A stretch of 48,203 nt of DNA from a virus: positions 1-48,203 of IMG/VR virus record IMGVR_UViG_3300031823_000010; one strand, given 5' to 3'. The notes under the pieces are model-generated. The model did no database searches. It was not told the DNA's origin and saw only the letters and a program-made list of their open reading frames with translations. Of this stretch, positions 4,226 to 44,913 are shown piece by piece. Both the position numbers and the translations under genes were made by a program. Position 1 is the first letter of the stretch. Each line of letters starts with the position of its first letter.

Positions 4226-5746
4226 TTACCAATAGATTTGTACAAAGCCGGGGCCAGCGGGGCCTATAACCGTAGAACCTCCACCACCGCAACCGCGTGC
4301 GCCGCGAGACCAGTTCATTGCAGTTCCCGCATTCAGGCCAGAGGGAGTGCCGCTGCCGCCATGGACGCCACCGCCATCACCGCCGCGCAGCCCCGGAACA
4401 CCCCATCTTCCGTTGACGCCATTGGTTCGAGTCATGGAGATGACGTGATCGCCGCCATTGGTAATTCCGCCTGTGGTGCCGCCGCCGCCCGGTGCGGCGA
4501 AGCTCCCGTTAGCTCCCGGTGCAACGAACAGGTTCGGCGTCACTATTGGCGTGTGCGTAGAAAATTGCGCCTGCGTATTTCCGGCCTCGCGTATGTTGAT
4601 GGTCAAAGGAAACATGTTCGCAGTGATTCCCTGCAAGGTCGCTTCGAGCAGCCCGCCTTCGCCGCCGCCATGCCCGCCAGTCGGGGCTTCGCCACCGGAG
4701 CCGCCTGACCCTTTCAATACGAGCCGCAGGTGGATGCCCTCGGGATGAGTTGCGAGGGTGGGAATTTCAGAGGCGTTGACAAAGAAGGTTCCCAGCATCG
4801 CGAACTCGATGTAGTGCAGCATGATGTCAACTGCGATAGGCGTGAGCCATGGCCGCCAGAAGTTGGTATCGAATAGCGAGTTGCCAGTGTTCCCGTCAGT
4901 CATGCTTTGGTAGATGATGCTTGATGTTGTGTCCAGTACCATCGCGCCCGCGTTGTACATGTCGCCCGAACGAAAAACTCGCAGCCCTGCATTGTCGAGC
5001 GCGAGAAACGTATCTTGAGCATTTACTTGTGTCTCGAAGATTGCCGAAGCATCAGCCTCAGTCATAAACCGCGCATCGGCCTGTTCCGGGGTTATGAACG
5101 TAGCCGCAGCATCGGTCCTGGTTATGAAGTCGGCAAGCGTCTCATCCAGTTGTTCACGGCTTATGACGTCACCCTTGAGTACATAGCGTTCGTCGGCTTG
5201 CGCCTCAGTGAGAAAGAGTGCTTCGGCCTGTTCGGTAGTGAGATAGTGCTCTTCGAGTGCGGCCTTGGTCACGAACTCGATCGCGGCATTAGCTTGTGTC
5301 AGAAACAACGAGTACGCTGCTTCCCGCGTGTGGAAGTGCTCACTTGCCGATTCGGGAGTAAGAAAGATTTCTTCTGCCTGCGCCTGCGTCATGTACAGTG
5401 CATCGAGATCGCTCTTTCGCCAGGGCAGCTGCTCCCACCAGCCGGCGAGCGCGTCTGGCAGATGGCCAACGTTTGCGTCAACAGTCGAATAGTAGAAGCT
5501 GTCTTCAAAGATCACGATGCTTCCCACGCTGTACTCAGCGTCGAGCACCCACGCGGGCACGCCGGTCGTCAGGTAGTAGAGCACGCCGTTGATCGCGTAT
5601 TGCAGCGCGTTGTTGATCGACTGGCGTGTCGGCTTTTCGTTCGTACCCGATGGATATCCCGCCGCCATCTCTTCGTGAGTCAGCGGCAGCATCACTTCAT
5701 CTGCGGCCCACGGACGCGGGAAAAATCTCGGAATCGTAATTGCCAT
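4226..5746 (-). CDS. Tail fibre with decapeptide-repeat shaft and glycine-rich tip
   Basis: A 506-residue protein. Residues 1-115 form an attachment module shared with the next fibre (FPRPWA, KPTRQSINNALQYA, PWRKSDLDA). Residues about 117-188 and 207-255 are exact-period 10-residue repeats of the type FLT-xxxAxx. A globular module follows (260-305), and residues 345-506 form a glycine-rich tip with GGHGGGEGG, GGDGGGVHGGSG and GCGGGGS, ending in VQIYW. The tip resembles glycine-rich domains of phage adhesins and probably contacts the receptor. It is the insertion-free paralogue of the malectin-bearing fibre at 5756-9133. Confidence 0.82.
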   Translation of the reverse strand: MAITIPRFFPRPWAADEVMLPLTHEEMAAGYPSGTNEKPTRQSINNALQYAINGVLYYLTTGVPAWVLDAEYSVGSIVIFEDSFYYSTVDANVGHLPDALAGWWEQLPWRKSDLDALYMTQAQAEEIFLTPESASEHFHTREAAYSLFLTQANAAIEFVTKAALEEHYLTTEQAEALFLTEAQADERYVLKGDVISREQLDETLADFITRTDAAATFITPEQADARFMTEADASAIFETQVNAQDTFLALDNAGLRVFRSGDMYNAGAMVLDTTSSIIYQSMTDGNTGNSLFDTNFWRPWLTPIAVDIMLHYIEFAMLGTFFVNASEIPTLATHPEGIHLRLVLKGSGGSGGEAPTGGHGGGEGGLLEATLQGITANMFPLTINIREAGNTQAQFSTHTPIVTPNLFVAPGANGSFAAPGGGGTTGGITNGGDHVISMTRTNGVNGRWGVPGLRGGDGGGVHGGSGTPSGLNAGTAMNWSRGARGCGGGGSTVIGPAGPGFVQIYW

Positions 5747-5755
5747 GATGACCCC

Positions 5756-8700
5756 CTACCAATCCACAGTGATGAAACCTTCAGCCGCATTGCCAACAGG
5801 CTCGCCGCCGAACCAACTGCTGCCGCCACCACCATGAACTCCTGTCGCAAACGTAGTAAAGACTTCACAGCCCGAAAGCGTGGCATTGGCTGCGACAGTC
5901 TCAAAGAGAACCACGATGTTTCCGTTGCTATCACTGCGTGCGCGATAGTCCACGGCCAAGGCTGTGCGAAGTCCTGCTATACCTTCAGGGCTGAAATTGG
6001 TAGCTACTCGCACGCCATTGAAAGTGATGTTGATAATTCGCCGCTCCGTGCCGCCAGCACCATCATCGACAAAGTGCAAACGCACAACATATTCGGTGTT
6101 CGGTTCAAGTGGCAACGTGAGTGTCCAATTGATATCGAAGCGGATCGTGTCGTAAATGACCCGAGGCGCAACATTTGGGCGACTCATATTGAGTTCTTCG
6201 CCTGACATCCAATCAAACCCACTGCCCGCTGTAAAAATAGCACCCGCATCGCTCATCCAGTCGGCGAGTGCTGGCCCACCCGCGTTCCATCCATAAACGC
6301 GAGTCATCGCTGGCAATCCTAGAAACTCCATTTCGATGCCATTGAGAATTGGATCAACCCCAACATTAGGCGGTATCGCCTCAAACCAGATGTGTAGCCC
6401 CTCAGCGTTCGCCGTCACATCTGTCTCTAAGATGTACGCAATGAATTGACCTCCGGCCCGCTCAAAGACATTGAAGTTTCGCGCAATCCACCGGTTGTTT
6501 ACTGCTACATCAAAACTGCGACTGCCTGACTCATCCCAGCACTCACAGAAGTGCAAGCGCAGACGATAGACCCAGCCGGGAGTAACCGTCGGCGGGGAAA
6601 TCCTATAACTAAACGGAGTTGGCGTACCTCCACCCCCAAAGCGACAAGTTCGATAGACCATGTCCGGCGCGGGGCGAACGACTCGACTAATGTCAATCGT
6701 CGCCGCTGCATCAGTAGCAGTGACATTTCCGCCCGTATACCACCTGTCTTCCCAACCCGGTTCGCCAAGAAGCGCAGCACCGCAATTGATCGGAGCCATG
6801 CCGCTTGGCATCGGCAAGACTGGAAAGATTTCGATTCCGTTGATCTGCGGAGCGTCGGTGACACCCCAAAACCCGATATTGAATTGGCCGAACTGACTTG
6901 CCTGTACTACAAATGTTTGAACGTTGGCGATGCGTGCTCCACCCGCTGCTGCGAAAATATCAAAATTCTCCAGCACAAAGTCCAAGTTGACCCTGATATG
7001 GAATACACGTTGTCCAGCAACTTCAACGAAATGCTCGCAAAAGTGAAAACGAATAACGTGAAGAACGAAAGGTGCAGCAAAATTGAGAACGTTATAACTC
7101 AGGGTATTGGTTGGAGTTATATATCGCGCCGACTGGTAAATCTCCATCGGTGCGGGTCGCAGGACTTGACTCATATCAATAACGCTGTCGGGGATGTTGT
7201 ACGTTGAAGTTGGCAAGCCACCGCCGCCTTGATATCCAGTATCGACACCCCACGCGCCAACGACGTCGCCGCCACAGTTGATAGTTCGCAGCGGCATACC
7301 ACTGCCGCCGCCAGCTCCACCGCCATCACCACTGCGAAACCCCGGCCATGCGAACTTCCCATGAGCGCCGGGTATCTTCTCCACTGCCATGAGCCCACGG
7401 CCAAGCGCGACCGTGGCTTGATCGCCGCCTAGTCCGGGCTCTTCCTCCGTCGCGTCGCTGCCGGGCGATACGCTGAGTAATGTGACCAGCGGGAGGATTT
7501 CAATTCCGGCGATAATGGGCGGGTGTGCCTGCGGAGTAAATGTAATAACGATCTGCCCTTGAACGTTCGCCGTTGCGAGCGTCGTTTCTATATAGGCGAT
7601 GCGAACACCGCCTGTCGCCTCGATAATGTTGAACTGATCCAGAATCATGATGTTGTTGACGACTACCCTGAATCGACGATGGGGCCAACCGCCTTCTGTC
7701 CAGAGTTCGCAGAAATGTAAACGCACAATCTGATACGACCCCGGCGTATAGCCGCCGAAGGTATAGACCAATGGGGTGGGATCATCGAAACGCACCGACC
7801 GATAGACTTCTTCCGGCGCGGGCGACTCAACATGACTGAGATCAATCGGCCCACTACCGGGATCACCGTGCGCTACGCCCCCGCCGAAACCCTCGTCGGC
7901 TCGCCAAGTCTCAAGGGCACCACCCCCACAATTTACTTGTAGCGTCTGATTCCCAAACCTGTTGATAGATGACTGCTGCCCCGGACCGCCAACGATAAGC
8001 ATTAGAGGAAACATTGACTCTTCCACGACGGCAGTGGCAGTAATCTCTGCGCCCTCGCCGCCGCCGCCCACTCCATAACCCCTGCCGCCGCCAGCCTTGA
8101 GACGAAATCTTGCCAGAATTTCGCCGTGCGTTTCCACTTCCGGCAACAGTAGATCTTCCAGGGCGAGACTGTACGTTCCGCTCTCGGTATACGTCAGTCT
8201 GTGCGCCCACTCTCCCGCGCCCGATGGCACCACATAGGGCGGCGTCCACTCTGTCCAATACTCTTCATCATCTAGTGGGTGGCCTATGTTGTCGTCGGCC
8301 AGGCTACGATAGATCATCTTCGTTTCAGAGTCGAACGCGAGCACGCCGAAACTATAAGTCGCCTCGGGACGATAGCGGCTGATAGCTGCATTGATCTTGG
8401 CTTCGAAGCGTGCCTTCGCATCTTCCGACGTAAGGTAGATAGCTTCACCGCGATCGCGAGTGAGATGGGTTTCATCGTCAAGCGTGAGATAAAGTTCTTT
8501 ACCGTCGGCGAGGGTCAAATACTCTTGCAAGACTTCGGCCAGCACTTCAGCCGAGATCGTATCTTCGTAAATCGCATAACGTTCATCAGCGATAGCCACG
8601 GTAAGGAACAGGCTGATAGCCTCTTCGCGAGTGATGTACTCAGCCTCCAACGCAGCCTGAGTCACATAGAGCAACGCCATCTTTGACGGCGTGATAAACA

Positions 8701-27789: not shown

Positions 27790-28034
27790 AGTCGTGTGGA
27801 AAGGAAGCCAGCACGCATGACCATGCTGGCCTAAACGAAAATGTAAAAACTCCGAAGAAGCAGCTTGGCAAAAGACTGCGTCTGTGCGCACTCTAAGGCG
27901 TCGACTTACTCTGCGTCAATGAGTTGGGAGTAAGTTAGTCGTAAGTGGTGCGGAAATTCGAACTACTCAATTTGCCGCAATTGACGCACCCTTCCGCAAT
28001 AGGTTGCAAAGTCGGACAGGAATTTGTAACTCCT
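27790..28034. promoter_or_regulatory. Divergent control region between late operon and terminase
   Basis: This 245-bp stretch holds no clear gene. It contains a hairpin (GCCAGCA 27807-27813, TGCTGGC 27824-27830) and a perfect 8-bp inverted repeat (ACTTACTC 27904-27911, GAGTAAGT 27928-27935). It also has two outward TTGACG boxes: minus strand 27914-27919, with TTAGAG 17 bp on, and plus strand 27981-27986. The boxes could be -35 elements for late transcription in both directions. The -10 matches are weak, so an activator would be expected. Confidence 0.45.
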
Positions 28035-29597
28035 ATGGCAACAACGTCACCTAGTCTTGATCGAGCGATCGTCGAGCTTCGCATTCGTGAGGCGATTTCA
28101 CAGAAACGTGCGGCTCGCCACTTTTCGACTTTCGTTCGCTACATGCAGCCCGCTTACTACATGGGCTGGTTTCATCAACGCCTGGCGAACGCGCTCAACC
28201 AGTTTGCCGAGGACGTGATCGCGGAGAAGTCGCCGCGCCTGATCATCGAAGCCCCGCCGCGCCACGGCAAGAGCACCCAGGCGTCACGCCTGTTGCCACC
28301 CTTTCTCCTGGGCAAGTGCGCCGACCTCGAAATTCTTTCGACCAGCTACGGTGACGCGATCGCCCTGGAATTTTGCGCTGACGTTCAACGCATCATGGAC
28401 TCGACGCATTACCACGGCGTTTTCCCTGAGACGATGATTCCCGGCATCTACGGCAAGCGGGGCATGGTCAAACGGTCTGCCGACCACTTCGGCATCATCG
28501 GCCGTCTCGGTGCCTATCGAGCCGCGGGTCTGAGTTCGGCGCTTACCGGGCGCGGTGCCGATGCGCTGATCATCGACGACCCATTCAAAGGGCGTGAGGA
28601 TTCGCAGTCACCCGCGCAGCGTTCGAAGATCTACAACAATTTCGTCTCGGCGGCCATGACTCGCGTGCACAAGGGCGGCGGCATCATCATCATCGCCACC
28701 CGCTGGCACGAGGACGATATCGTCGGGCGCATCCTGGCTGATACCGAATGGGCGGCGCAATGGACGGTGGTCAGCTTTCCCGCCATCGCCACCGACGATG
28801 AGTTCGACGAGCAAGGCGATCTCATGCGCAGCCAGGGTGAGGCGCTGTGTCCGCAGTTAAAGTCGCTTGCCGAGTTGAATGAACTGCGCCGGTCCATGTC
28901 GATCTCGATGTGGTCGGCGATCTATCAGCAAGCACCATCCCCGGAGTCGGGCGGCTTGCTCAAGCGGTATCACTGGCGTTACTGGCAACCCATCGGCGCG
29001 GGTTTGCCCCCGGTTGTGGTCGAAGACGAAGAGGGGCGCAAGGTCGAGATCGTCGCCGAAGAGTTGCCGCGCCTATACGACCGCAATCTGCAATCGTGGG
29101 ACCTGAACTTCGGCAACGCCAAGCAAGATGGTGACTACGTCGTCGGGCTGGTGATCAAGACTCGCGGCGCGAAGCGTTTCATCATCGATCGCTACAAGGA
29201 GAAAGCCGACTTCACCGAAACCATTCGGGCGATGCGCGAGATGATCGACCGCTATCCCGAATGCTCAGCGAAGTACGTTGAGAAAGCCGCGAACGGCGTG
29301 GCCTCCATGAGTCTGCTCGAAAACAACTACGGCATCACCGGCCTGATTCCAATTCCGAAAGACAAAAACAAATTTCTCTATGCCGATACTGCGAATGATC
29401 AACTCCGTGCGGGTAACTGGTATCTCCCGCATCCTGCACTGGCTCGCTGGGTGGATGATTTTCTTTACACGCTGACCATGTTCCCCAACGCGAAGCATGA
29501 TGACGACGTCGATGCATGGTCGCAAGCCGCAATCAAATTGCAGACCAGTGCTAGGCTCGATGTGTTCCTGAGAGATGTTGAAGGTGAAATAACGTGA
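28035..29597 (+). CDS. Terminase large subunit (ATPase/nuclease)
   Basis: This 520-residue packaging motor has Walker A PPRHGKST at about 74-81, Walker B ALIIDDPF near 176-184, and RNase H-like nuclease acidic residues in SWDLNFG (about 354-360) and HDDDVDAWSQ (about 489-498). A frame extends up to GTG 27945, but ATG 28035 is preferred by homologue length. It stands alone on the plus strand, divergent from the portal it must dock to, with the small-subunit candidate 4 kb away on the other strand. Confidence 0.92.
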   Translation: MATTSPSLDRAIVELRIREAISQKRAARHFSTFVRYMQPAYYMGWFHQRLANALNQFAEDVIAEKSPRLIIEAPPRHGKSTQASRLLPPFLLGKCADLEILSTSYGDAIALEFCADVQRIMDSTHYHGVFPETMIPGIYGKRGMVKRSADHFGIIGRLGAYRAAGLSSALTGRGADALIIDDPFKGREDSQSPAQRSKIYNNFVSAAMTRVHKGGGIIIIATRWHEDDIVGRILADTEWAAQWTVVSFPAIATDDEFDEQGDLMRSQGEALCPQLKSLAELNELRRSMSISMWSAIYQQAPSPESGGLLKRYHWRYWQPIGAGLPPVVVEDEEGRKVEIVAEELPRLYDRNLQSWDLNFGNAKQDGDYVVGLVIKTRGAKRFIIDRYKEKADFTETIRAMREMIDRYPECSAKYVEKAANGVASMSLLENNYGITGLIPIPKDKNKFLYADTANDQLRAGNWYLPHPALARWVDDFLYTLTMFPNAKHDDDVDAWSQAAIKLQTSARLDVFLRDVEGEIT

Positions 29598-29957: not shown

Positions 29958-30000
29958 TTGACGTCATCCCTTTCGTATAAGTTTGTTATACAATGACGCA
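29958..30000 (+). promoter_or_regulatory. Candidate promoter with GTATAA palindrome
   Basis: Upstream of the zinc-finger gene lie TTGACG (29958-29963) and TATACAAT (from 29987), with a perfect palindrome GTATAA-N5-TTATAC (29975-29991) across the AT-rich part. The spacing of the two boxes (23 bp) is poor for sigma70. The palindrome could be an operator; related halves occur at 40088-40104 near the repressor. Confidence 0.4.
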
Positions 30001-30037: not shown

Positions 30038-30718
30038 ATGACGAAGCCGAAGCCGAGATGCCCCGAATGCAACAAGATTTTCGCTACCGTGCAGCTGCTC
30101 GCAATGCATCGCAAGAAAGCACACAACGTCGAGGGCACCTCGAAATCACACCTCGCCACGAAAGCACTCAAGGCAAAGATAGAAGCGGCTGCACCGATAG
30201 CCGCTCCGATCGTCGAAGTAAAACCTGAACCTCTCCCGCTCAAGTGCGCTGATTGCGATTTCACATGCGACAAGCCACAGTTGCTTGGACGTCACCGGCG
30301 ATTCACTCATGGGGTCGTCGGTGAGGTCACCCGTATCAATCGAGAGAAGATGGAAAAACGGCTTCTCCAGGGTACGGGGTTTCCCTGCCCGCACTGTAGC
30401 TTCAACGCCGCGTCGCGCAATGGTCTCGGCGTCCATCTCGTTACCACGCATAAAGACCTAGCCACCACTATCGAAGGAGAGACAGACCTTGATCGCCCTA
30501 AAGAAAAACGACTTGCACGAATCAACAACAACGGGAGCAACGGGAACCACAGCGAAGAAAGCCACTTTGCTGCAAATGGTATCCCCGAAGGCACCCTCGC
30601 CCTTGCCCTTGGCCGATTCCAAGGACTTTGCCAAAGCATGGCGACTGAGTTCGACCTTCCTCCGCGGCTGTTTGCCTCCCGGCTCGCAGAGCTTATATAC
30701 CGCTCGCAAATACGGTAA
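30038..30718 (+). CDS. Triple C2H2 zinc-finger protein
   Basis: The 226-residue protein starts at ATG 30038 behind GGAGTTTGA. Three fingers of the form C-x2-C-x12-H-x4-H are seen: CPECNKIFATVQLLAMHRKK (about 8-27), then at about 70 CADCDFTCDKPQLLGRHRRF, and near 115 CPHCSFNAASRNGLGVHLVT. Fingers 1 and 2 are separated by an Ala/Lys/Pro linker. An Asn-rich linker leads to a C-terminal helical part (LALALGRFQGLCQSMATEFD, LPPRLFASRLAELI). Multi-finger C2H2 proteins are rare in bacteria and their phages. DNA or RNA binding is likely; a target is unknown. Confidence 0.8.
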   Translation: MTKPKPRCPECNKIFATVQLLAMHRKKAHNVEGTSKSHLATKALKAKIEAAAPIAAPIVEVKPEPLPLKCADCDFTCDKPQLLGRHRRFTHGVVGEVTRINREKMEKRLLQGTGFPCPHCSFNAASRNGLGVHLVTTHKDLATTIEGETDLDRPKEKRLARINNNGSNGNHSEESHFAANGIPEGTLALALGRFQGLCQSMATEFDLPPRLFASRLAELIYRSQIR

Positions 30719-30836
30719 CCATATCGGCATTCCAATCCGATGCCCACACTGCGACGATCGCCCGCCGAAGCATATCGCGCCGTACTCACGCTGGCGCTGG
30801 CTTACGTTCCACATCGCAACGCGACACACTCACTGA
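30489..30836 (+). CDS. Overlapping ORF ending in a CxxC...HxxxxH finger
   Basis: This 115-residue ORF reads in another frame over the last 230 bp of the zinc-finger gene. It then fills the following 118 bp, which would otherwise be empty. It could start at TTG 30489, which has AAGGAG nine to ten bases upstream. Its unique C-terminus contains IPIRCPHCDDRPPKHIAP and WLTFHIATRHTH, a zinc-finger-like set. It may be a separate overlapping gene, or the tail of the zinc-finger protein reached by a +1 shift, or decayed sequence. Confidence 0.4.
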   Translation: MIALKKNDLHESTTTGATGTTAKKATLLQMVSPKAPSPLPLADSKDFAKAWRLSSTFLRGCLPPGSQSLYTARKYGNHIGIPIRCPHCDDRPPKHIAPYSRWRWLTFHIATRHTH

Positions 30837-31072: not shown

Positions 31073-31447
31073 ATGAAACTCTCAGACGAACGACTCGAAG
31101 AGCTAACGCGCCGGGCGGTCTTTGAGGACGACGGACGTGTGTTCTATAAAGCCGCCATTCATGGTGTATCGGTCGCAGAAGAACACTGGCTGGCTGCGGA
31201 GTTGCTGTCACTGCGGAAGCGACTCCCGCCAGAGCGAAAGCGCAAAGAAAATCCCTGCTCCGATTGCTTCGACGGATACTGCACGATGAACTGCGGCCCC
31301 GCTGTAATACCGAAGGAGGATACCAATGCCGAAGTCAATCGACGTTCTGCCAGAGACGTTTCAACTCGACATGCGCCTCACCGTGCGCGAGTCCGCACTC
31401 CTGCTAAAGATGTGCAGCTACGCCGCGATCGTAGCGATGAAAAGTAA
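31073..31447 (+). CDS. Unknown protein with Cys-rich middle
   Basis: This 124-residue ORF starts at ATG 31073. The first 60 residues are helical (LSDERLEELTRRAVFEDDG, WLAAELLSLRKRLP), followed by CSDCFDGYCTMNC, a likely metal site. The last 40 residues are Arg-rich and overlap the next gene out of frame by 122 bp. That tail is probably unconstrained or the gene ends early by mutation, since the overlapping gene has the better ribosome binding site. Confidence 0.55.
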   Translation: MKLSDERLEELTRRAVFEDDGRVFYKAAIHGVSVAEEHWLAAELLSLRKRLPPERKRKENPCSDCFDGYCTMNCGPAVIPKEDTNAEVNRRSARDVSTRHAPHRARVRTPAKDVQLRRDRSDEK

Positions 31448-31535
31448 GGAGTCCTTCGCGGTCGAATTCGTTCGGCTGACTAACAAGATCAACTTACAAA
31501 ATCCCAACTACACGCCTATCGAGATTCCGAACTAA
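31326..31535 (+). CDS. Unknown small protein, paralogue A
   Basis: The 69-residue protein has AAGGAGG before ATG 31326. LTVRESALLLKMCSYAAIVA through NPNYTP aligns with the protein at 31779-32060 (LNDNEYNAMTLMCAMATAAA through NPNFTP), so the two arose by duplication. It is predicted helical. Function unknown. Confidence 0.65.
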   Translation: MPKSIDVLPETFQLDMRLTVRESALLLKMCSYAAIVAMKSKESFAVEFVRLTNKINLQNPNYTPIEIPN

Positions 31536-31546
31536 GGAGGTCGATG

Positions 31547-31786
31547 ATGGATACCAATGACTACCCGCGAGAGTGGCGTGCAGCCGCAGCGATTCTCGGT
31601 GGTGACGATTTCACAAAGCTACTTCCGAAAGTCCGTCACAAATCTGTTTTACATCTTCATGGCGATTACTTCATCGAGCCACCGCCACCACCACCGCCGC
31701 CGTCGCTACCGATGTGGTTTCAGATGCGCGTCTGCGCGATGGCCTGGAATGACGAGCTAGGAATGTTGGAGGATATCGATGACTAA
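31547..31786 (+). CDS. Unknown protein with octaproline stretch
   Basis: The 79-residue protein is started at the second of two ATGs, with AAGGAGG six bases upstream. The N-terminal part (PREWRAAAAILGGDD) is followed by eight consecutive prolines and a short helical end that overlaps the next gene by eight bases. The proline run may act as a spacer or stall ribosomes without EF-P. It lies between two paralogous genes. Confidence 0.6.
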   Translation: MDTNDYPREWRAAAAILGGDDFTKLLPKVRHKSVLHLHGDYFIEPPPPPPPPSLPMWFQMRVCAMAWNDELGMLEDIDD

Positions 31787-32060
31787 TTTCAAGGACTTCA
31801 TTCGCCGCGCACAACTGACGCAGAAAACTGTCGACGCTATGACACACATGCATCGTATCGAAGTACAACTCAACGACAACGAGTACAACGCTATGACGCT
31901 GATGTGCGCGATGGCCACCGCCGCCGCATTCCAACAGGGTGACCGCGGACTCGTTAAGATGCTTATCACAGTCACCAATCGGCTGCATGAGAACGACCCC
32001 AACTTCACGCCTTACGATGAGAAGTCGATCGCCAATATCAACGTACAGAGAAATAAATGA
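31779..32060 (+). CDS. Unknown small protein, paralogue B
   Basis: The 93-residue protein starts at ATG 31779, behind GGAGGATATCG, overlapping the previous stop. The segment from about residue 28 to 77 aligns with the product of 31326-31535 (LMCAMATAAAF, MLITVTNRLHENDPNFTPYD). It carries an extra N-terminal helix (FKDFIRRAQLTQKTVDAMTH). Function unknown. Confidence 0.65.
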   Translation: MTNFKDFIRRAQLTQKTVDAMTHMHRIEVQLNDNEYNAMTLMCAMATAAAFQQGDRGLVKMLITVTNRLHENDPNFTPYDEKSIANINVQRNK

Positions 32061-36997: not shown

Positions 36998-37291
36998 TTA
37001 TATCGTTTTTCGGCGCCGACGTCGTGTGGACGCCTCCAGAGCGTGCCAGGGGCCGATTCTGGGGCGCAGTTCGGCGATCCTGGCCGAAAAAACCGCATCG
37101 ATCTTCTCGGCGTTGACTAATCGGTCGTATTCTGCTCTGGTCGCCGCCGCCGACCATAGGCCGGGGAAGCGATGGAATTGCACCAGCAGACGACCGCCGT
37201 CGAAGCCGATCGCGGCGATCTCGTCGGACTGGCCGGGCAGAATTTCGTTCAACTCTGCCTCGACCACTTCGAAGTAGGGCTTCAGGGTCAT
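36998..37291 (-). CDS. KTSC-domain protein (short)
   Basis: The 97-residue protein aligns with the KTSC fold: DEIAAIGFDGGRLLVQFHRF, EYDRLVNAEKIDAVFSARI, and a basic tail STRRRRRKT. The fold is found in phage and bacterial proteins and has been linked to lysyl-tRNA synthetase, where it is named. The adjacent upstream gene carries a second KTSC domain, and their genes overlap by four bases. Role unknown; the basic tail suggests nucleic-acid contact. Confidence 0.65.
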   Translation of the reverse strand: MTLKPYFEVVEAELNEILPGQSDEIAAIGFDGGRLLVQFHRFPGLWSAAATRAEYDRLVNAEKIDAVFSARIAELRPRIGPWHALEASTRRRRRKTI

Positions 37292-38337
37292 CGACGCCCC
37301 CCAACTCTCCTTGCAGCGAAGGTCTCGCGAATCGACGTACCCGGAATCTGTAGCCGACCGCCCGCCTGTTTCACCCGGCGCTGAATCTCGGTCACGGTCT
37401 TGGCCACATCGACGACCAGATACTCACGCGGCACGCTGGCGAGATCGGTGATGGTGACCTCGTAGGTGATACCGCCGCCGACGCCATTCACGGTGGCTAC
37501 GGCCGGTCGGACCGGCATCGGCATGTCGTAGCGAATCGCCGCGGGCATGGGCGCGTCCAGCACCGCGTTCGCGCCTTCCTCATCCCCCATCGCCAGGAGT
37601 TCTTCAGCCGCCGCCAAAGCGTTGTTCTCGGTTTCGGCGATGGCACGCTGCCGCGCTTCCTCTTCGGCGACGCGCCGGTTACGATCGTCCTCTTCCTGAG
37701 CCGCCTTCAGCTGCTCATAGGTGTAGTCGCCGATTTGTTGGCGCAGCTGCTTGTCGGCTTCGATCAGCGGTTTGAGTAGTTCACTTTCCTTGTCGCATAC
37801 GGCGCGATGCGCGGCGAACGCCGCCGCCTTCATCGGCTTCCAGGTCTCGACGATGCGTTTCTTCACCGTGTCCAGGTCGACCAAGATCTTCATCGCGGCT
37901 TCGTGGGTGGCGACGTCGGTGATTTTGATGGCCGTCGCCTTCATCGCCCACTCCTGCGCGGCGGTGGCAAGGTCGCCGGCTTCTTTGGGCATCATCGCGG
38001 CAACCCGCTTGCCGTTATCAAACTGCACGAGGTTGGTCGTCTTCGCGGGTTCGCTCGCAACAGGCGCGGTCGGTTCCAGTTCGGCCTTGGCGGGCACAAC
38101 CTTGGTGGCGACGCGCTTATAAGGCTTGTGGCCTTTGATGGTCTTGGCGAACAGGGTGCCAACGCTATCGGAGTTGAGCAAAGCGTCGTACTCGGCGGGC
38201 GTCACTTGATCATAGGTATAAAGACCGCCCCGGCGAAACGAGACGAACAATATCTCGGAGTCATAACCGATGGCGGCGATCTGCGAAGAACGCTCGATCG
38301 TTAGTTCAGTGAGGTTGGGGATGATGGCGTTTGTCAT
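37288..38337 (-). CDS. KTSC-domain protein with long coiled coil
   Basis: The 349-residue protein starts at ATG 38337 behind AAGGAAACAAATCGC and in an ATGA overlap with the exonuclease gene. SSQIAAIGYDSEILFVSF, RRGGLYTYDQVTPAEYDALL and the following GTLFAKTIKGHKPYKRV form a full KTSC domain (about 15-75). A Glu/Ala-rich coiled coil (AAQEEDDRNRRVAEEEARQR) and a C-terminal alpha/beta part follow. It lies between recombination genes and RusA, which suggests a recombination or replication accessory role. Confidence 0.68.
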   Translation of the reverse strand: MTNAIIPNLTELTIERSSQIAAIGYDSEILFVSFRRGGLYTYDQVTPAEYDALLNSDSVGTLFAKTIKGHKPYKRVATKVVPAKAELEPTAPVASEPAKTTNLVQFDNGKRVAAMMPKEAGDLATAAQEWAMKATAIKITDVATHEAAMKILVDLDTVKKRIVETWKPMKAAAFAAHRAVCDKESELLKPLIEADKQLRQQIGDYTYEQLKAAQEEDDRNRRVAEEEARQRAIAETENNALAAAEELLAMGDEEGANAVLDAPMPAAIRYDMPMPVRPAVATVNGVGGGITYEVTITDLASVPREYLVVDVAKTVTEIQRRVKQAGGRLQIPGTSIRETFAARRVGGRR

Positions 38338-39038
38338 GCGATTTGTTTCCTTATCCGGTGGGATTTCCATGTCTGGAGGTATCGACCGCCACCATTGATG
38401 GCGTCGAGAAATGCGTAGTAGTCCTGCTGTTGAGAGAACCAGTTGAGGCGGTAGGTGTTCTCTTCGAGATAGAGCGCGATGCGTTCCTGCTGAAGTGCCA
38501 GCTGCATCACGCGCTCGATACCCATTGAGTAACCCGCGAGTTGAAGGGGATGTGCCAGCTGATAGCTGCCGGTCTTGATATCGAGAATGATCTTCTGACG
38601 CGAGGGCGGAAAAGAGCCGACGCGGTCGGGCGTCATGCCGACGATGGTGTTGTGAATCTCCACCAGACGAGGGCGCTCCGTCTCGTCATGGATAGCGATG
38701 AAACCCGTTTCCTGCAAAAAACGTTCGTATTGCCGAACGTATCCGCGATCGTCGGGGTGGACGCGCTCAGACTCGAAAAACTCTTCGAGCGTCAGCGGCG
38801 TGCGTGGTTTATCCCACTTCAGGATGCCCCGTATCTTGTCCCACTTTGCGGTATAGGCATGGACGCGGGTGCCTCGCTCAGCCGCCCGCGCCAGCACGAA
38901 CGGGTCGACCATAGAGAAGTCGACACAGTCGCAGTCAGCGAGTATCTGCGTCACACTGCGATAACGCCGCCCCCGCGAATCGTGGTAGGCGTGCTCTATC
39001 GGGTCGAAGATGCAAGGCAGTTCGAATGGGCGCGGCAT
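38334..39038 (-). CDS. PD-(D/E)XK exonuclease (RecB/Cas4-like)
   Basis: The 234-residue nuclease starts at ATG 39038. GMTPDRVGSF supplies the first acidic metal ligand, and IILDIKTGSYQ is the D-x-K core. HPLQLAGYSMGIERV carries the Q motif of RecB-type nucleases, and HDETERPRLVEIHN precedes them. Phage exonucleases of this type resect double-strand ends for single-strand annealing. The gene sits directly behind the putative annealing protein, the normal pairing. Confidence 0.83.
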   Translation of the reverse strand: MPRPFELPCIFDPIEHAYHDSRGRRYRSVTQILADCDCVDFSMVDPFVLARAAERGTRVHAYTAKWDKIRGILKWDKPRTPLTLEEFFESERVHPDDRGYVRQYERFLQETGFIAIHDETERPRLVEIHNTIVGMTPDRVGSFPPSRQKIILDIKTGSYQLAHPLQLAGYSMGIERVMQLALQQERIALYLEENTYRLNWFSQQQDYYAFLDAINGGGRYLQTWKSHRIRKQIA

Positions 39039-40008: not shown

Positions 40009-40087
40009 GATGGTTCTCCTTTACTACGTCTGCGGTGATACCTCGGTTATGTCTATAATGCGCAACTCCGAGAGACATATAACTATC

Positions 40088-40104
40088 TTATACGTTTTGT
40101 ATAC
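40088..40104. promoter_or_regulatory. Candidate operator TTATAC-N5-GTATAC
   Basis: An imperfect palindrome of 6-bp halves with a 5-bp centre lies in the presumed leftward early promoter. It shares the TTATAC half with the palindrome at 29975-29991. It may be bound by the CI-like or Cro-like protein. Confidence 0.4.
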
Positions 40105-40186: not shown

Positions 40187-40837
40187 CTAGATCATGCGTT
40201 CCCAACGCGCCACGACCGTACCGAGAATTGAGATCGCTTGGTCGGTCGAACGGATGACGGGGAAATAGTTATTCAAGGTGATCAATTCGAAGGGTCGCTT
40301 GCCCTGACCATTTTCAAGAGCGCGATAGATTCGCACGATCGCGTCCTCTGTATTCTTGACTCGCGCAGCGACGAATTGACCGGGCTGCGGAATAACCCCG
40401 GCGTCGACGACGACAATATCGTGCTGGTTGAGTTTAGGTTCCATCGCTTTGTCGTAGACATTCATCGCGAAGGCTTTTTTGGAAACCTCAAAATATACAG
40501 TGATCGAGTCCGGCCACTGCTCTGTAATTGTTTGCAGACCTGCCACTTTAGAGTTGACCATGGGAATTCTGTAGCCTCGCAAGTTCTGTGGCAAAGCAGA
40601 CTGGTCGGAGAGGTCCTTATAACGAAGAGCTTCAACAGTAACGCCAAAGTGTTTTGCCAGCAGATGAAGTGTTGCATCTCGGGGGGTGATATTTTTTCCG
40701 GTCAGGATTCGGTGGATAGTCGGCTGTTTTACGCCAGCAGCTTTCGCTAATGCGTTCTGACTGATGCGTGCCTGACGCAGCAGCCAACGTAAGTTTGCCG
40801 CTACCGTGATCACACTAAAATCGTTCTTATCGCCCAT
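40187..40837 (-). CDS. CI-like repressor, XRE HTH plus S24 fold lacking the catalytic dyad
   Basis: The 216-residue protein has an N-terminal HTH (ISQNALAKAAGVKQPTIHRI, about 25-44) and a C-terminal LexA/CI-type domain. The place of the catalytic serine (usual SMxP) reads KAMEP, so Ala131 replaces Ser. The place of the catalytic lysine reads IVRIY, so Arg169 replaces Lys. An Ala-Gly pair (99-100, KVAGLQ) stands where cleavage normally occurs. It is transcribed divergently from the Cro-like gene and should maintain lysogeny, probably without RecA-driven self-cleavage. Confidence 0.85.
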   Translation of the reverse strand: MGDKNDFSVITVAANLRWLLRQARISQNALAKAAGVKQPTIHRILTGKNITPRDATLHLLAKHFGVTVEALRYKDLSDQSALPQNLRGYRIPMVNSKVAGLQTITEQWPDSITVYFEVSKKAFAMNVYDKAMEPKLNQHDIVVVDAGVIPQPGQFVAARVKNTEDAIVRIYRALENGQGKRPFELITLNNYFPVIRSTDQAISILGTVVARWERMI

Positions 40838-40891
40838 AGGTCTATATAGTTTATTTATATAATGCTTTGGCCATCGATAGCCCTTTACCTC

Positions 40892-43121: not shown

Positions 43122-43339
43122 TGGCAACTATCATTGACGATTCGCCCATCATCGAAGTGCTGGAACAACGGAAGTCACTGATGAACGTGAAAGAGGTTGC
43201 CAAGGTTACTGGTCTCAGTATTCCGACAGTCTATCGCCGCGTTCATGCAAAGACATTACCTGCGGTAAAGTTCGGCTATGTGATCAAGTTTGACCCGCAC
43301 CAAATCGCACAGTGGATACGCGAACACTACGCTAGCTGA
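43121..43339 (+). CDS. Excisionase-family HTH protein, copy 2
   Basis: The 72-residue protein starts at ATG 43121 behind AAGGTGAAGACATA. SLMNVKEVAKVTGLSIPTVY then VKFGYVIKFDPHQIAQWIRE align with copy 1 along the full length. Its 3' end overlaps the convergent integrase gene by 13 bp, the typical place of a recombination directionality factor, so it is the better excisionase candidate of the two. Confidence 0.72.
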   Translation: MATIIDDSPIIEVLEQRKSLMNVKEVAKVTGLSIPTVYRRVHAKTLPAVKFGYVIKFDPHQIAQWIREHYAS

Positions 43340-44607
43340 GCTTTACGCTTCGGCATTTCGATGACGTCAGCGGTAGCCGGTCGCGGCCTATCGAAGATCC
43401 GAGTCAGAGCGATTTGATTGGCATCCATGCCCGCTGGCTTCAGGTAACGCATCGTCGTTCTAATGTCGCTGTGGCCCATCAGATGCATCAGTGAACGCAG
43501 ATCAAGTCCGTCCCGCAAGCAGTTAGTAGCAAACGTATGACGGAACTTATGCAGCTTCCACTTCTCACATTCGCGAGACTTCAGACACCCCTCGCATTTC
43601 TTACATGCAATGCCGAGTCGCCACACGTCGCGCTTGAGATATCGCAGTGAGTTTTTTCGCGGTCGTGAGTCTTTTCCAGTGCCAAAGACGAAACGAAAAT
43701 CAGGATGTTTGGCGTAGTAGTCTTTCAAGCTCTCTACTAAAACATCTGTCAGAGGGATGGTTCGTGGCTTATCATTCTTGATTCTGAATCCGAATTCAGG
43801 TTTGCTGTAGAACCGAACTTTTTTCCCGATGAAGTCGATATCCTTCCACTGCACATGCGTAGCTTCACGCTCACGCGCCCCAGTCTTCAGTAGAAACTCG
43901 TAGAACAAAGAATTACGCAGAGTCTTCGCGCCCGCGATCAGCTTCGTAACTTCATTAGGGTCGTCATAAATTTCGATCTCAGGTGGCTTCTCATCAGGCA
44001 TGTCATCTTTCATTGGCAGCTGCTCTTTGGGTACTTCAGCAAATTTCAGAAACCGCCGTAGACGATACGAGTAGGAAAAAATCGTGTTGTCACTCATGCA
44101 CTGTTTTTTCATTTCTTTGATACAGCGAGCGAAGTCGTCAGCAACGACTTCAGCTGGCATCGTCTTGCGCACTGTCTCAAAGAAGAGATCGAGGATGCGT
44201 TCATAACTGAAAAGCGATCGCTCTTCGATGCGCAGACCGATGTGCTCGATGAATAGCGGGCGAAGTTCGAGCAAGCTCTTTTCCCCGGCATCACGCTGGG
44301 GTACTCGCGTGCCGGTGGCTGCGAGATAGTGCTTGTCTGCGATCAACTTGTTTTTAGTTGTCTTGCGGGTCGAGAGTGCAGCTGCGGCGTCATCAGTCAA
44401 TACTTCGAAGACCGTTTTGCCGTCTTTGTATGTGCGCAAGTGATACACGCCTTCGGGATAGTTCGCGTCCACGCCATTGTCTTTGACCCAACCTTTTCGC
44501 AGTCGGCCGTTCGTCGACGGTTCGACGCGGAAGCGACGCCACCCCTTGGGTGTCTTGCAATGCCAGTAAAGCAACGCCGTGAGGCTTTCTCTTTTTCTCG
44601 TTCCCAT
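43327..44607 (-). CDS. int: Tyrosine integrase
   Basis: The 426-residue protein starts at ATG 44607, with AAGGAG five bases upstream. Catalytic residues are Arg245 (TGAREREATHVQW), His353 and Arg356 (KLHKFRHTFATN), His379 (LMGHSDIRTT) and Tyr388 (MRYLKP). A core-binding domain lies at about 110-205, and the N-terminal 90 residues may bind arm sites. A four-cysteine cluster (CKKCEGC...C, residues 335-347) sits just before the HxxR motif and is not usual. It should recombine the adjacent attP with a host attB. Confidence 0.93.
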   Translation of the reverse strand: MGTRKRESLTALLYWHCKTPKGWRRFRVEPSTNGRLRKGWVKDNGVDANYPEGVYHLRTYKDGKTVFEVLTDDAAAALSTRKTTKNKLIADKHYLAATGTRVPQRDAGEKSLLELRPLFIEHIGLRIEERSLFSYERILDLFFETVRKTMPAEVVADDFARCIKEMKKQCMSDNTIFSYSYRLRRFLKFAEVPKEQLPMKDDMPDEKPPEIEIYDDPNEVTKLIAGAKTLRNSLFYEFLLKTGAREREATHVQWKDIDFIGKKVRFYSKPEFGFRIKNDKPRTIPLTDVLVESLKDYYAKHPDFRFVFGTGKDSRPRKNSLRYLKRDVWRLGIACKKCEGCLKSRECEKWKLHKFRHTFATNCLRDGLDLRSLMHLMGHSDIRTTMRYLKPAGMDANQIALTRIFDRPRPATADVIEMPKRKAQLA

Positions 44608-44913
44608 ATTTCTCCTTCGGTGGCGGGCTGCCAACTTCATCGATTATATGGTACAAAACCGTACAAAGCTAAGGTAAAGCTATGAAAATAAACACGCGGA
44701 ATTGTTCAGCCTATGGACCTCCCATACGTTTCCTATGTGTTTGATATACAAAGATAAACGCAACAACTGCAAAGACTTGCGCTTTATCATGCTTCTCAGA
44801 TTTAGTCAGGATTATCACTAGGCATCACGTTTCACGCGCTAAATGGTACAAAGCCCGTAAAGTGGTACAAAGCGAAATCATCAATAAAGACGCGCCTTTT
44901 ATCGATTTACCCC
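44608..44913. other. Integrase upstream region, no gene
   Basis: This 306-bp AT-rich intergenic stretch has no convincing ORF. It contains four direct arm-like repeats and the candidate attP. A weak -10-like TATATG lies near 44645, and the region ends at the tandem terminators of the neighbouring operon. Confidence 0.6.
44649..44873. other. attP: Candidate attP with four direct arm-type sites
   Basis: TGGTACAAA(A/G)C-like sites occur at 44649, 44659 (CCGTACAAAGC), 44844 and 44863, all in the same direction. They stand in two pairs that flank about 175 bp, including CATACGTTTCCTATG near 44726, a possible core. Paired direct arm sites either side of a core, next to the integrase gene, are the lambda-type attP layout. 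The exact crossover core cannot be set without a host sequence. Confidence 0.55.

Follow-up and report, generated by a model that had tools for sequence, protein, structure and literature searches.

Overlapping genes for a C2H2 zinc finger protein and a predicted second zinc protein in a temperate phage and its relatives

Classical C2H2 zinc fingers are described as practically absent from bacteria (PMC3541406). The bacterial Ros/MucR proteins have a single finger with a 9-residue spacer between Cys and His, and an N-terminal oligomerisation region (PMC9779718). AFV1p06, a protein of an archaeal virus, binds zinc and DNA and also has a single finger, in which Glu is the fourth ligand (PMC3541406). 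Plant EPF/ZPT proteins display 1–4 fingers with a QALGGH helix, the linkers are 19–65 aa long and single fingers are able to recognise separate core sites (PMC3268024). Overprinted viral genes are cases where two proteins are encoded by one stretch in different frames (PMC8227390). No description of a multi-finger C2H2 phage protein, or of an overlapping zinc finger pair, was found in the open-access literature.

The window, i.e. the whole stretch of DNA that was analysed, corresponds to a single virus record in IMG/VR, 48,203 bp in length. It represents a tailed phage with genes for terminase, portal, protease and major head protein, and also for a CI-like repressor with an S24 peptidase, RusA and a tyrosine integrase. 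The phage is considered temperate because of the CI-like repressor and the integrase (positions 43327–44640). Its central 24 kb has no close relative among GenBank phages at the DNA level. The ZF1 open reading frame (positions 30038–30718, plus strand) begins with ATG, has an SD-like GGAG at its 5′ side and encodes 226 aa with three C2H2 fingers and a C-terminal helical hairpin. ZF2 (positions 30489–30836, plus strand) is in the +1 frame, begins with TTG and encodes 115 aa. It overlaps the last 230 nt of ZF1 and continues for 118 nt beyond the ZF1 stop codon. The best explanation, to which we give a probability of about 0.6, is that the two form an overlapping out-of-frame pair in which ZF1 would bind DNA through fingers on long linkers, much as EPF proteins do, and together with ZF2 would serve as a regulator early in the lytic phase. 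That the gene pair is real and has been overlooked appears well supported by the sequence comparisons; its function we infer.

The fingers of ZF1 are located at aa positions 8–29 (finger 1, CPECNKIFATVQLLAMHRKKAH, nt 30059–30124), 70–91 (finger 2, CADCDFTCDKPQLLGRHRRFTH, nt 30245–30310) and 117–138 (finger 3, CPHCSFNAASRNGLGVHLVTTH, nt 30386–30451), all on the plus strand and all of the form C-x2-C-x12-H-x4-H. By sequence the three exact motifs fit the classical C2H2 pattern C-x2-4-C-x12-H-x3-5-H with an F/L core. In 200,000 residue shuffles of ZF1 the motif occurred once in 69 and twice in none. Pfam zf-C2H2 (PF00096) matches ZF1 with 29.6 bits, the cut-off being 25.2. An AlphaFold2 model with an input alignment of 12 relatives shows three beta-beta-alpha fingers (pLDDT about 87–96) with a further helix behind each, a disordered stretch at 145–182 and a C-terminal two-helix hairpin at 184–205 and 209–224. 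The fold of the fingers is thus predicted to be the classical one. The first-pass annotation had described three C-x2-C-x12-H-x4-H units within 226 residues, classical in type, unusual for a phage and of other spacing than in Ros/MucR. The open reading frame, the exact motifs, the Pfam match and the model, where all three units fold as beta-beta-alpha, bear this out. It can hardly be doubted that the zinc fingers of ZF1, and the phage family to which it belongs, are real.

ZF1 resembles Ros/MucR in being a prokaryotic C2H2 protein with a helix behind the finger helix. Unlike Ros/MucR, the ZF1 family has 12-residue spacers and 1–4 fingers, and finger 1 of ZF1 begins at residue 8, such that any oligomerisation region would have to be C-terminal. 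Assignment to Ros/MucR is ruled out by finger count and spacer. Like AFV1p06 and other archaeal-virus C2H2 proteins, ZF1 carries a eukaryote-type finger and comes from a virus that infects a prokaryote; AFV1p06 however has one finger and a Glu ligand, which rules out this assignment as well, and no overlapping partner of it has been described. In TFIIIA/Kruppel arrays the linkers are of the TGEKP type and about 5 aa long, whereas in ZF1 they are 40 aa ahead of finger 2 and 25 aa ahead of finger 3, and thus ZF1 is not a Kruppel array. There is likeness to the EPF/ZPT proteins, with which the family has in common the 1–4 C2H2 fingers and long variable linkers (7–45 aa in the 13 proteins measured). 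Helix motifs that partly resemble QALGGH, namely QLLGRH, QALGLH and QVLGRH, are seen in some fingers of the family and are absent from the GGL-type fingers. PQxLGxH helices are found in several first fingers, the finger 2 helix of ZF1 (KPQLLGRH) is of this type, and one finger in the family has QALGLH. Many fingers are followed by HG[VI]xG, and others are of the GGLxxH type. Unlike ZF1, the EPF/ZPT proteins have plant hosts, no such C-terminal hairpin and no overlapping ZF2, and DNA binding by ZF1 is putative. The likeness comes without a sign of common descent. Gp23 of Microbacterium phage Burro, annotated as a DNA binding protein, has two adjacent C2H2-like fingers, but it lacks the C-terminal domain of the family and its similarity is weak and at the finger level only.

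The C-terminal helical domain of ZF1, IPEGTLALALGRFQ..EFDLPPR.FASRLAELIY, encompasses aa positions 181–226 (nt 30578–30715, plus strand) and is wholly dual-coding. It has 72–87% identity in the seven closest relatives, and the hairpin consensus of the family is IPEATLALALGRFQELC.SMA.EFDLPPR.FAARLA.LIY. Searches of Pfam, PHROGs and PDB sequences with the hairpin gave zero matches. The conserved-looking C-terminal helical part pointed out in the first-pass annotation is real and is a better hallmark of the family than the fingers are, although its conservation is partly owed to the gene in the +1 frame. Searches with one or two full-length sequences recovered no relative from IMG/VR or from 84,980 genomes. 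A search with the C-terminal 46 residues, and not the fingers, found 11 relatives in IMG/VR. The scans of bacterial genomes relied mostly on patterns from the finger ends, and from them absence from bacterial chromosomes does not follow; the plasmids searched gave no match. Among GenBank phages the Tunturiibacter jumbo phage Tunturi_5, from Arctic soil (PMC11924767), is the sole one with a ZF1 homologue (36% identity over 97%) and it is the only isolate in the family. The search for phage homologues proposed at first pass has thus yielded the IMG/VR relatives and Tunturi_5. Gp156 of Tunturi_5 (PP885688, “zinc-finger domain protein”) is a true homologue, where fingers, C-terminal domain and ZF2 overlap are common to both, but it has two fingers in comparison with three in ZF1.

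ZF1 quite probably binds nucleic acid. Foldseek and VIA searches with ZF1 give eukaryotic DNA-binding fingers, with matches to single fingers only. At positions 3 and 6 of their helices, however, the fingers mostly have Gly or a hydrophobic residue, unlike the strong base reading of the zif268 type, and RNA or protein targets are therefore possible. A KRAB-like hypervariability of base contacts was also considered and dropped, because the residues at positions −1, 2 and 6 vary to no greater extent than those on the adjacent surface, and at position 3 Gly predominates. A different function would be that the fingers bind RNA or proteins, with ZF1 for example as an anti-host factor that holds the host polymerase, a nuclease or a ribosome component and ZF2 as its partner. 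The mostly non-polar helix positions, the separated fingers with long linkers and the general observation that host takeover is a frequent role of small early phage proteins are in agreement with such a function; the best sequence and structure matches, CTCF and ZFAT among them, are nevertheless DNA-binding fingers, at the single-finger level only. We regard binding of RNA or proteins as unlikely, but as an alternative to be taken seriously.

The first-pass annotation had also suggested a packaging accessory behind the terminase. In the window the terminase large subunit gene TerL (positions 27945–29597, plus strand) is followed by the gene for a 116-aa phrog_2072 protein and then by ZF1, which is the second gene after TerL. 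However, TerL is near the cassette only in the window and in L004. Of the 30 loci compared, 16 have a RecF/SbcC-like ATPase gene ahead of the cassette, in Tunturi_5 the cassette is beside a replication helicase gene, and in L006 and L012 it is beside a serine recombinase gene. A role in packaging or recombination, e.g. in aiding the terminase or in association with the ATPase, could be read from the terminase, ATPase and recombinase neighbours, but proximity to the terminase is not conserved and there are zero matches to known packaging proteins. Such a role is improbable, and the suggestion of a packaging accessory is not supported. The DNA-metabolism neighbours in most relatives would fit an early gene better.

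Several other features of the neighbourhood are also seen. The RecF/SbcC-like AAA ATPase is phrog_1499 (L003, positions 4759–6123, and 15 other loci) and behind it come two small proteins that are also conserved, one of them Cys-rich (phrog_5984-like). Downstream of ZF2 in the window, the small proteins encoded at 31326–31535 and 31779–32060 share one similarity cluster with a protein from L005, and these two are possibly tandem paralogues. A protein of the early region, with an N-terminal KTSC domain, is encoded at 37288–38370 on the minus strand.

A perfect inverted repeat, GTATAA-N5-TTATAC, which is operator-like, is at positions 29975–29991, i.e. 47–63 nt upstream of the ZF1 start. The CI-like repressor gene, which encodes an HTH and an S24 peptidase, is at positions 40187–40837 on the minus strand. 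An exact copy of TATAA-N5-TTATA is found between this gene and the next minus-strand gene (positions 40078–40092), and a copy with one mismatch is located just upstream of the repressor gene (positions 40845–40859). Three sites with this core compare with 0.16 expected, and three were reached in 0 of 100 shuffles. In L004, TTATAA-N5-TTATAA is present at the matching place upstream of ZF1. The palindrome is missing upstream of the other 11 ZF1 genes examined; in many relatives the cassette gene is packed tightly behind another gene. As the palindromes are shared by ZF1 and the CI-like gene, they are likely to be operators of the CI-like repressor, and we infer that the ZF1-ZF2 unit belongs to the lytic phase in the window phage and in L004.

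ZF2 escaped the first-pass annotation. Its conserved +1-frame sequence has the form LPPGSQSLYTARRYGNHLGVPCVCPHCEERPPKHI.PWNRWRWM.FHIATRH and was found in all 13 of the genomes whose frames were read past the ZF1 stop codon. A putative zinc site, predicted from the motif, is C85-x2-C88-x19-H108-x4-H113 with an invariant WRW (positions 30741–30827, plus strand). Across 28 sequences the invariant residues are LP, two Gly, C85, C88, P92, WRW and H108, and the last ligand is H, or apparently C in L045, L049 and L061. Such a residue pattern would be expected of a C2H2/C2HC zinc site. The AlphaFold2 model has a beta-hairpin, a CxxC knuckle and a helix with the first histidine, with a pLDDT of about 80–89 in the folded part. 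Comparison with Pfam, PHROGs, NCBIfam and PDB folds gave no significant match, where a fold may have been missed, and structure searches with Foldseek and VIA gave nothing meaningful. Both kinds of element, C2H2 proteins and overlapping genes, are known; ZF2 appears to represent a new zinc-protein family without a detected relative. As in overprinted viral genes, two proteins share one stretch in different frames. What sets this pair apart is that a zinc-binding motif is present in each of the two products, and that the overlap persists despite variation in the finger part. The ZF2 of Tunturi_5, found by tblastn, has 63% identity, in comparison with the 36% for ZF1. It is unannotated in the published genome (L002, PP885688.1), where it is at about 112,002–112,385 on the minus strand. 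ZF2 has probably been overlooked because gene callers reject long overlaps.

Within the ZF1 codons, at positions 30474–30480 on the plus strand, there is a Shine-Dalgarno sequence, AAGGAGA, for ZF2. A KYTRREI motif shared by several ZF1 proteins is how ACAAGGAGAGAGATTG, i.e. the Shine-Dalgarno sequence plus TTG, reads when translated in the ZF1 frame. An SD match of at least 5 nt together with a start codon, located 195–275 nt ahead of the ZF1 stop codon, is found in 19 of 24 genomes, and only 0.14 are expected from synonymous shuffles. A clear SD is absent from the tested zone in three of the 24, among them Tunturi_5. By these comparisons ZF2 appears to have its own translation start. A programmed +1 ribosomal frameshift, by which ribosomes would produce both ZF1 and an extended ZF1-ZF2 fusion protein, is suggested by +1 always being the continuation frame and by its extension beyond the ZF1 stop codon in nearly all genomes; moreover, frameshifting is common in phages. 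The independent SD and start codon are however kept beyond the demands of ZF1 coding, and in L043 and L050 ZF2 is nested wholly inside the frame-0 open reading frame. The frameshift was set aside because the internal start is conserved, and we consider it quite improbable.

The reading of ZF2 as an independently translated gene in an overlapping pair is also consistent with the pattern of substitutions. In each of the first 13 genomes the +1 frame is open over the final 70 codons of ZF1. Under synonymous shuffling the product of the per-genome probabilities is about 10^-12, a figure that treats the genomes as independent and is only indicative because they are related. Codon positions were compared by the mean pairwise identity at positions 1/2/3. 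Finger 1 of ZF1 has.57/.61/.355 and the 5′ part of the gene.48/.51/.33. For the overlap, when it is read in frame 0, the values are.73/.80/.69, and across 24 genomes they are.62/.75/.67. Third-position identity is thus 67–69% in the overlap as opposed to 33–36% elsewhere in ZF1. The neighbouring ATPase gene in 16 of the same genomes served as the control; its third positions do not exceed.53 in any 44-codon window, even where the protein identity (.74) is higher than that of the overlap (.66). Between close pairs, substitutions that affect the two proteins at once reach only 0.52–0.70 of what neutrality predicts, and those that are silent in just one frame exceed it, whichever frame that is (1.1–1.4), therefore neither frame is a mere passenger. 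That the +1 frame is conserved merely through strong selection on the ZF1 C-terminal domain, whose hairpin is indeed strongly conserved, is hardly credible, since third-position conservation in the overlap is far above the control and ZF2 is still conserved 3′ of the ZF1 stop codon, out of reach of any constraint from ZF1, with codon-like third-position variation in the +1 frame (.64/.72/.41). The dual-coding stretch (positions 30489–30718, plus strand) thus appears to be under protein-coding constraint in both frames, and ZF2 is very probably a real gene.

A ZF2 profile search found 28 loci in IMG/VR, 17 of them new, and a divergent profile added four. The overlap arrangement is present in 34 phage records, the window and Tunturi_5 included, and the frame-0 partner is in the same phase in all of these except L047. 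In L047, at about positions 4983–5056, an indel in the overlap shifts the ZF1 and ZF2 frames; this may be an assembly error or a true mutant. The number of fingers changes between genomes: one in L012 and L013, two in L002, L005 and L009, three in the window, L003, L004, L006, L007 and L011, and four in L008 and L010. Eleven newly found partners have 1–3 fingers, L060 has four and L061 two, and L059 displays a finger-like unit behind the hairpin. Six frame-0 partners (L043, L048, L050, L051, L052 and L057) have no finger, and four of them (L048, L051, L052 and L057) have instead a basic KHW[ST]Q-type (KHWTQTPEGRKRM-type) motif, which is possibly another nucleic-acid-binding module. The fingers do not appear essential to the cassette because these six relatives lack them in the frame-0 partner. 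The 28 records searched whole contain one copy of the cassette each. Together with the finger counts, the finger-less partners and the nesting of ZF2, this suggests that the constant part is the dual-coded cassette and that the variable part is the nucleic-acid-binding module.

The ZF2 sequences of L005 and L006 are 93% identical, but their finger parts are only 37% identical and finger counts differ; the finger part of L005 is nearest to that of L003 (55%). L005 is thus mosaic-looking, like L006 in ZF2 and like L003 in its finger part. The pattern suggests that finger arrays are swapped by recombination, although for some pairs rapid divergence is possible. A more far-reaching proposal, which we put forward only tentatively, is that of a modular regulator in phages, mainly of soil. 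Its DNA-reading part (1–4 eukaryote-style fingers or another basic module) would be exchanged between phages, and its obligate co-factor would be dual-coded through the effector domain, such that the two are locked as an inseparable unit.

As to the mode of action, ZF1 would bind duplex DNA (RNA being less likely) with its fingers as separate modules, each with its own short core site. The flexible long linkers may let the fingers act separately, as in the plant EPF/ZPT proteins. The hairpin would dimerise ZF1 or hold a partner. ZF2 would start at the internal ribosome site, be read in the +1 frame through the hairpin codons and end in a domain of the zinc-binding type CxxC...WRW..H..H. Being made from the same mRNA, it is a natural candidate for the hairpin partner or a co-acting factor, and a single mRNA for both may keep the two together. 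A partnership of ZF1 and ZF2 is a suggestion with slightly less than even odds, and a physical interaction is a guess. In a lysogen of the window phage the unit is probably held off by the CI-like repressor via GTATAA-N5-TTATAC, and early expression would follow on induction. The ZF1-ZF2 unit most likely would regulate phage or host transcription or replication. That the unit is an early regulator has, in our estimate, an even chance. The “specific regulator” of the first-pass annotation, unlike its packaging alternative, is retained here, as a DNA-binding regulator is still the best guess.

A phage family with 1–4 fingers, in which number and sequence change among relatives, is a prokaryotic system for the evolution of finger arrays and of target reading. 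The overlap adds a predicted zinc-protein family that was unannotated, and it is a clear phase-conserved case where two proteins share about 75 codons. Since an isolate and its host exist (Tunturi_5 on Tunturiibacter), the gene pair is testable. Should the lytic switch be under the control of this pair, there would also be a bearing on how acidobacterial phages, a group that has hardly been studied, take over their hosts.
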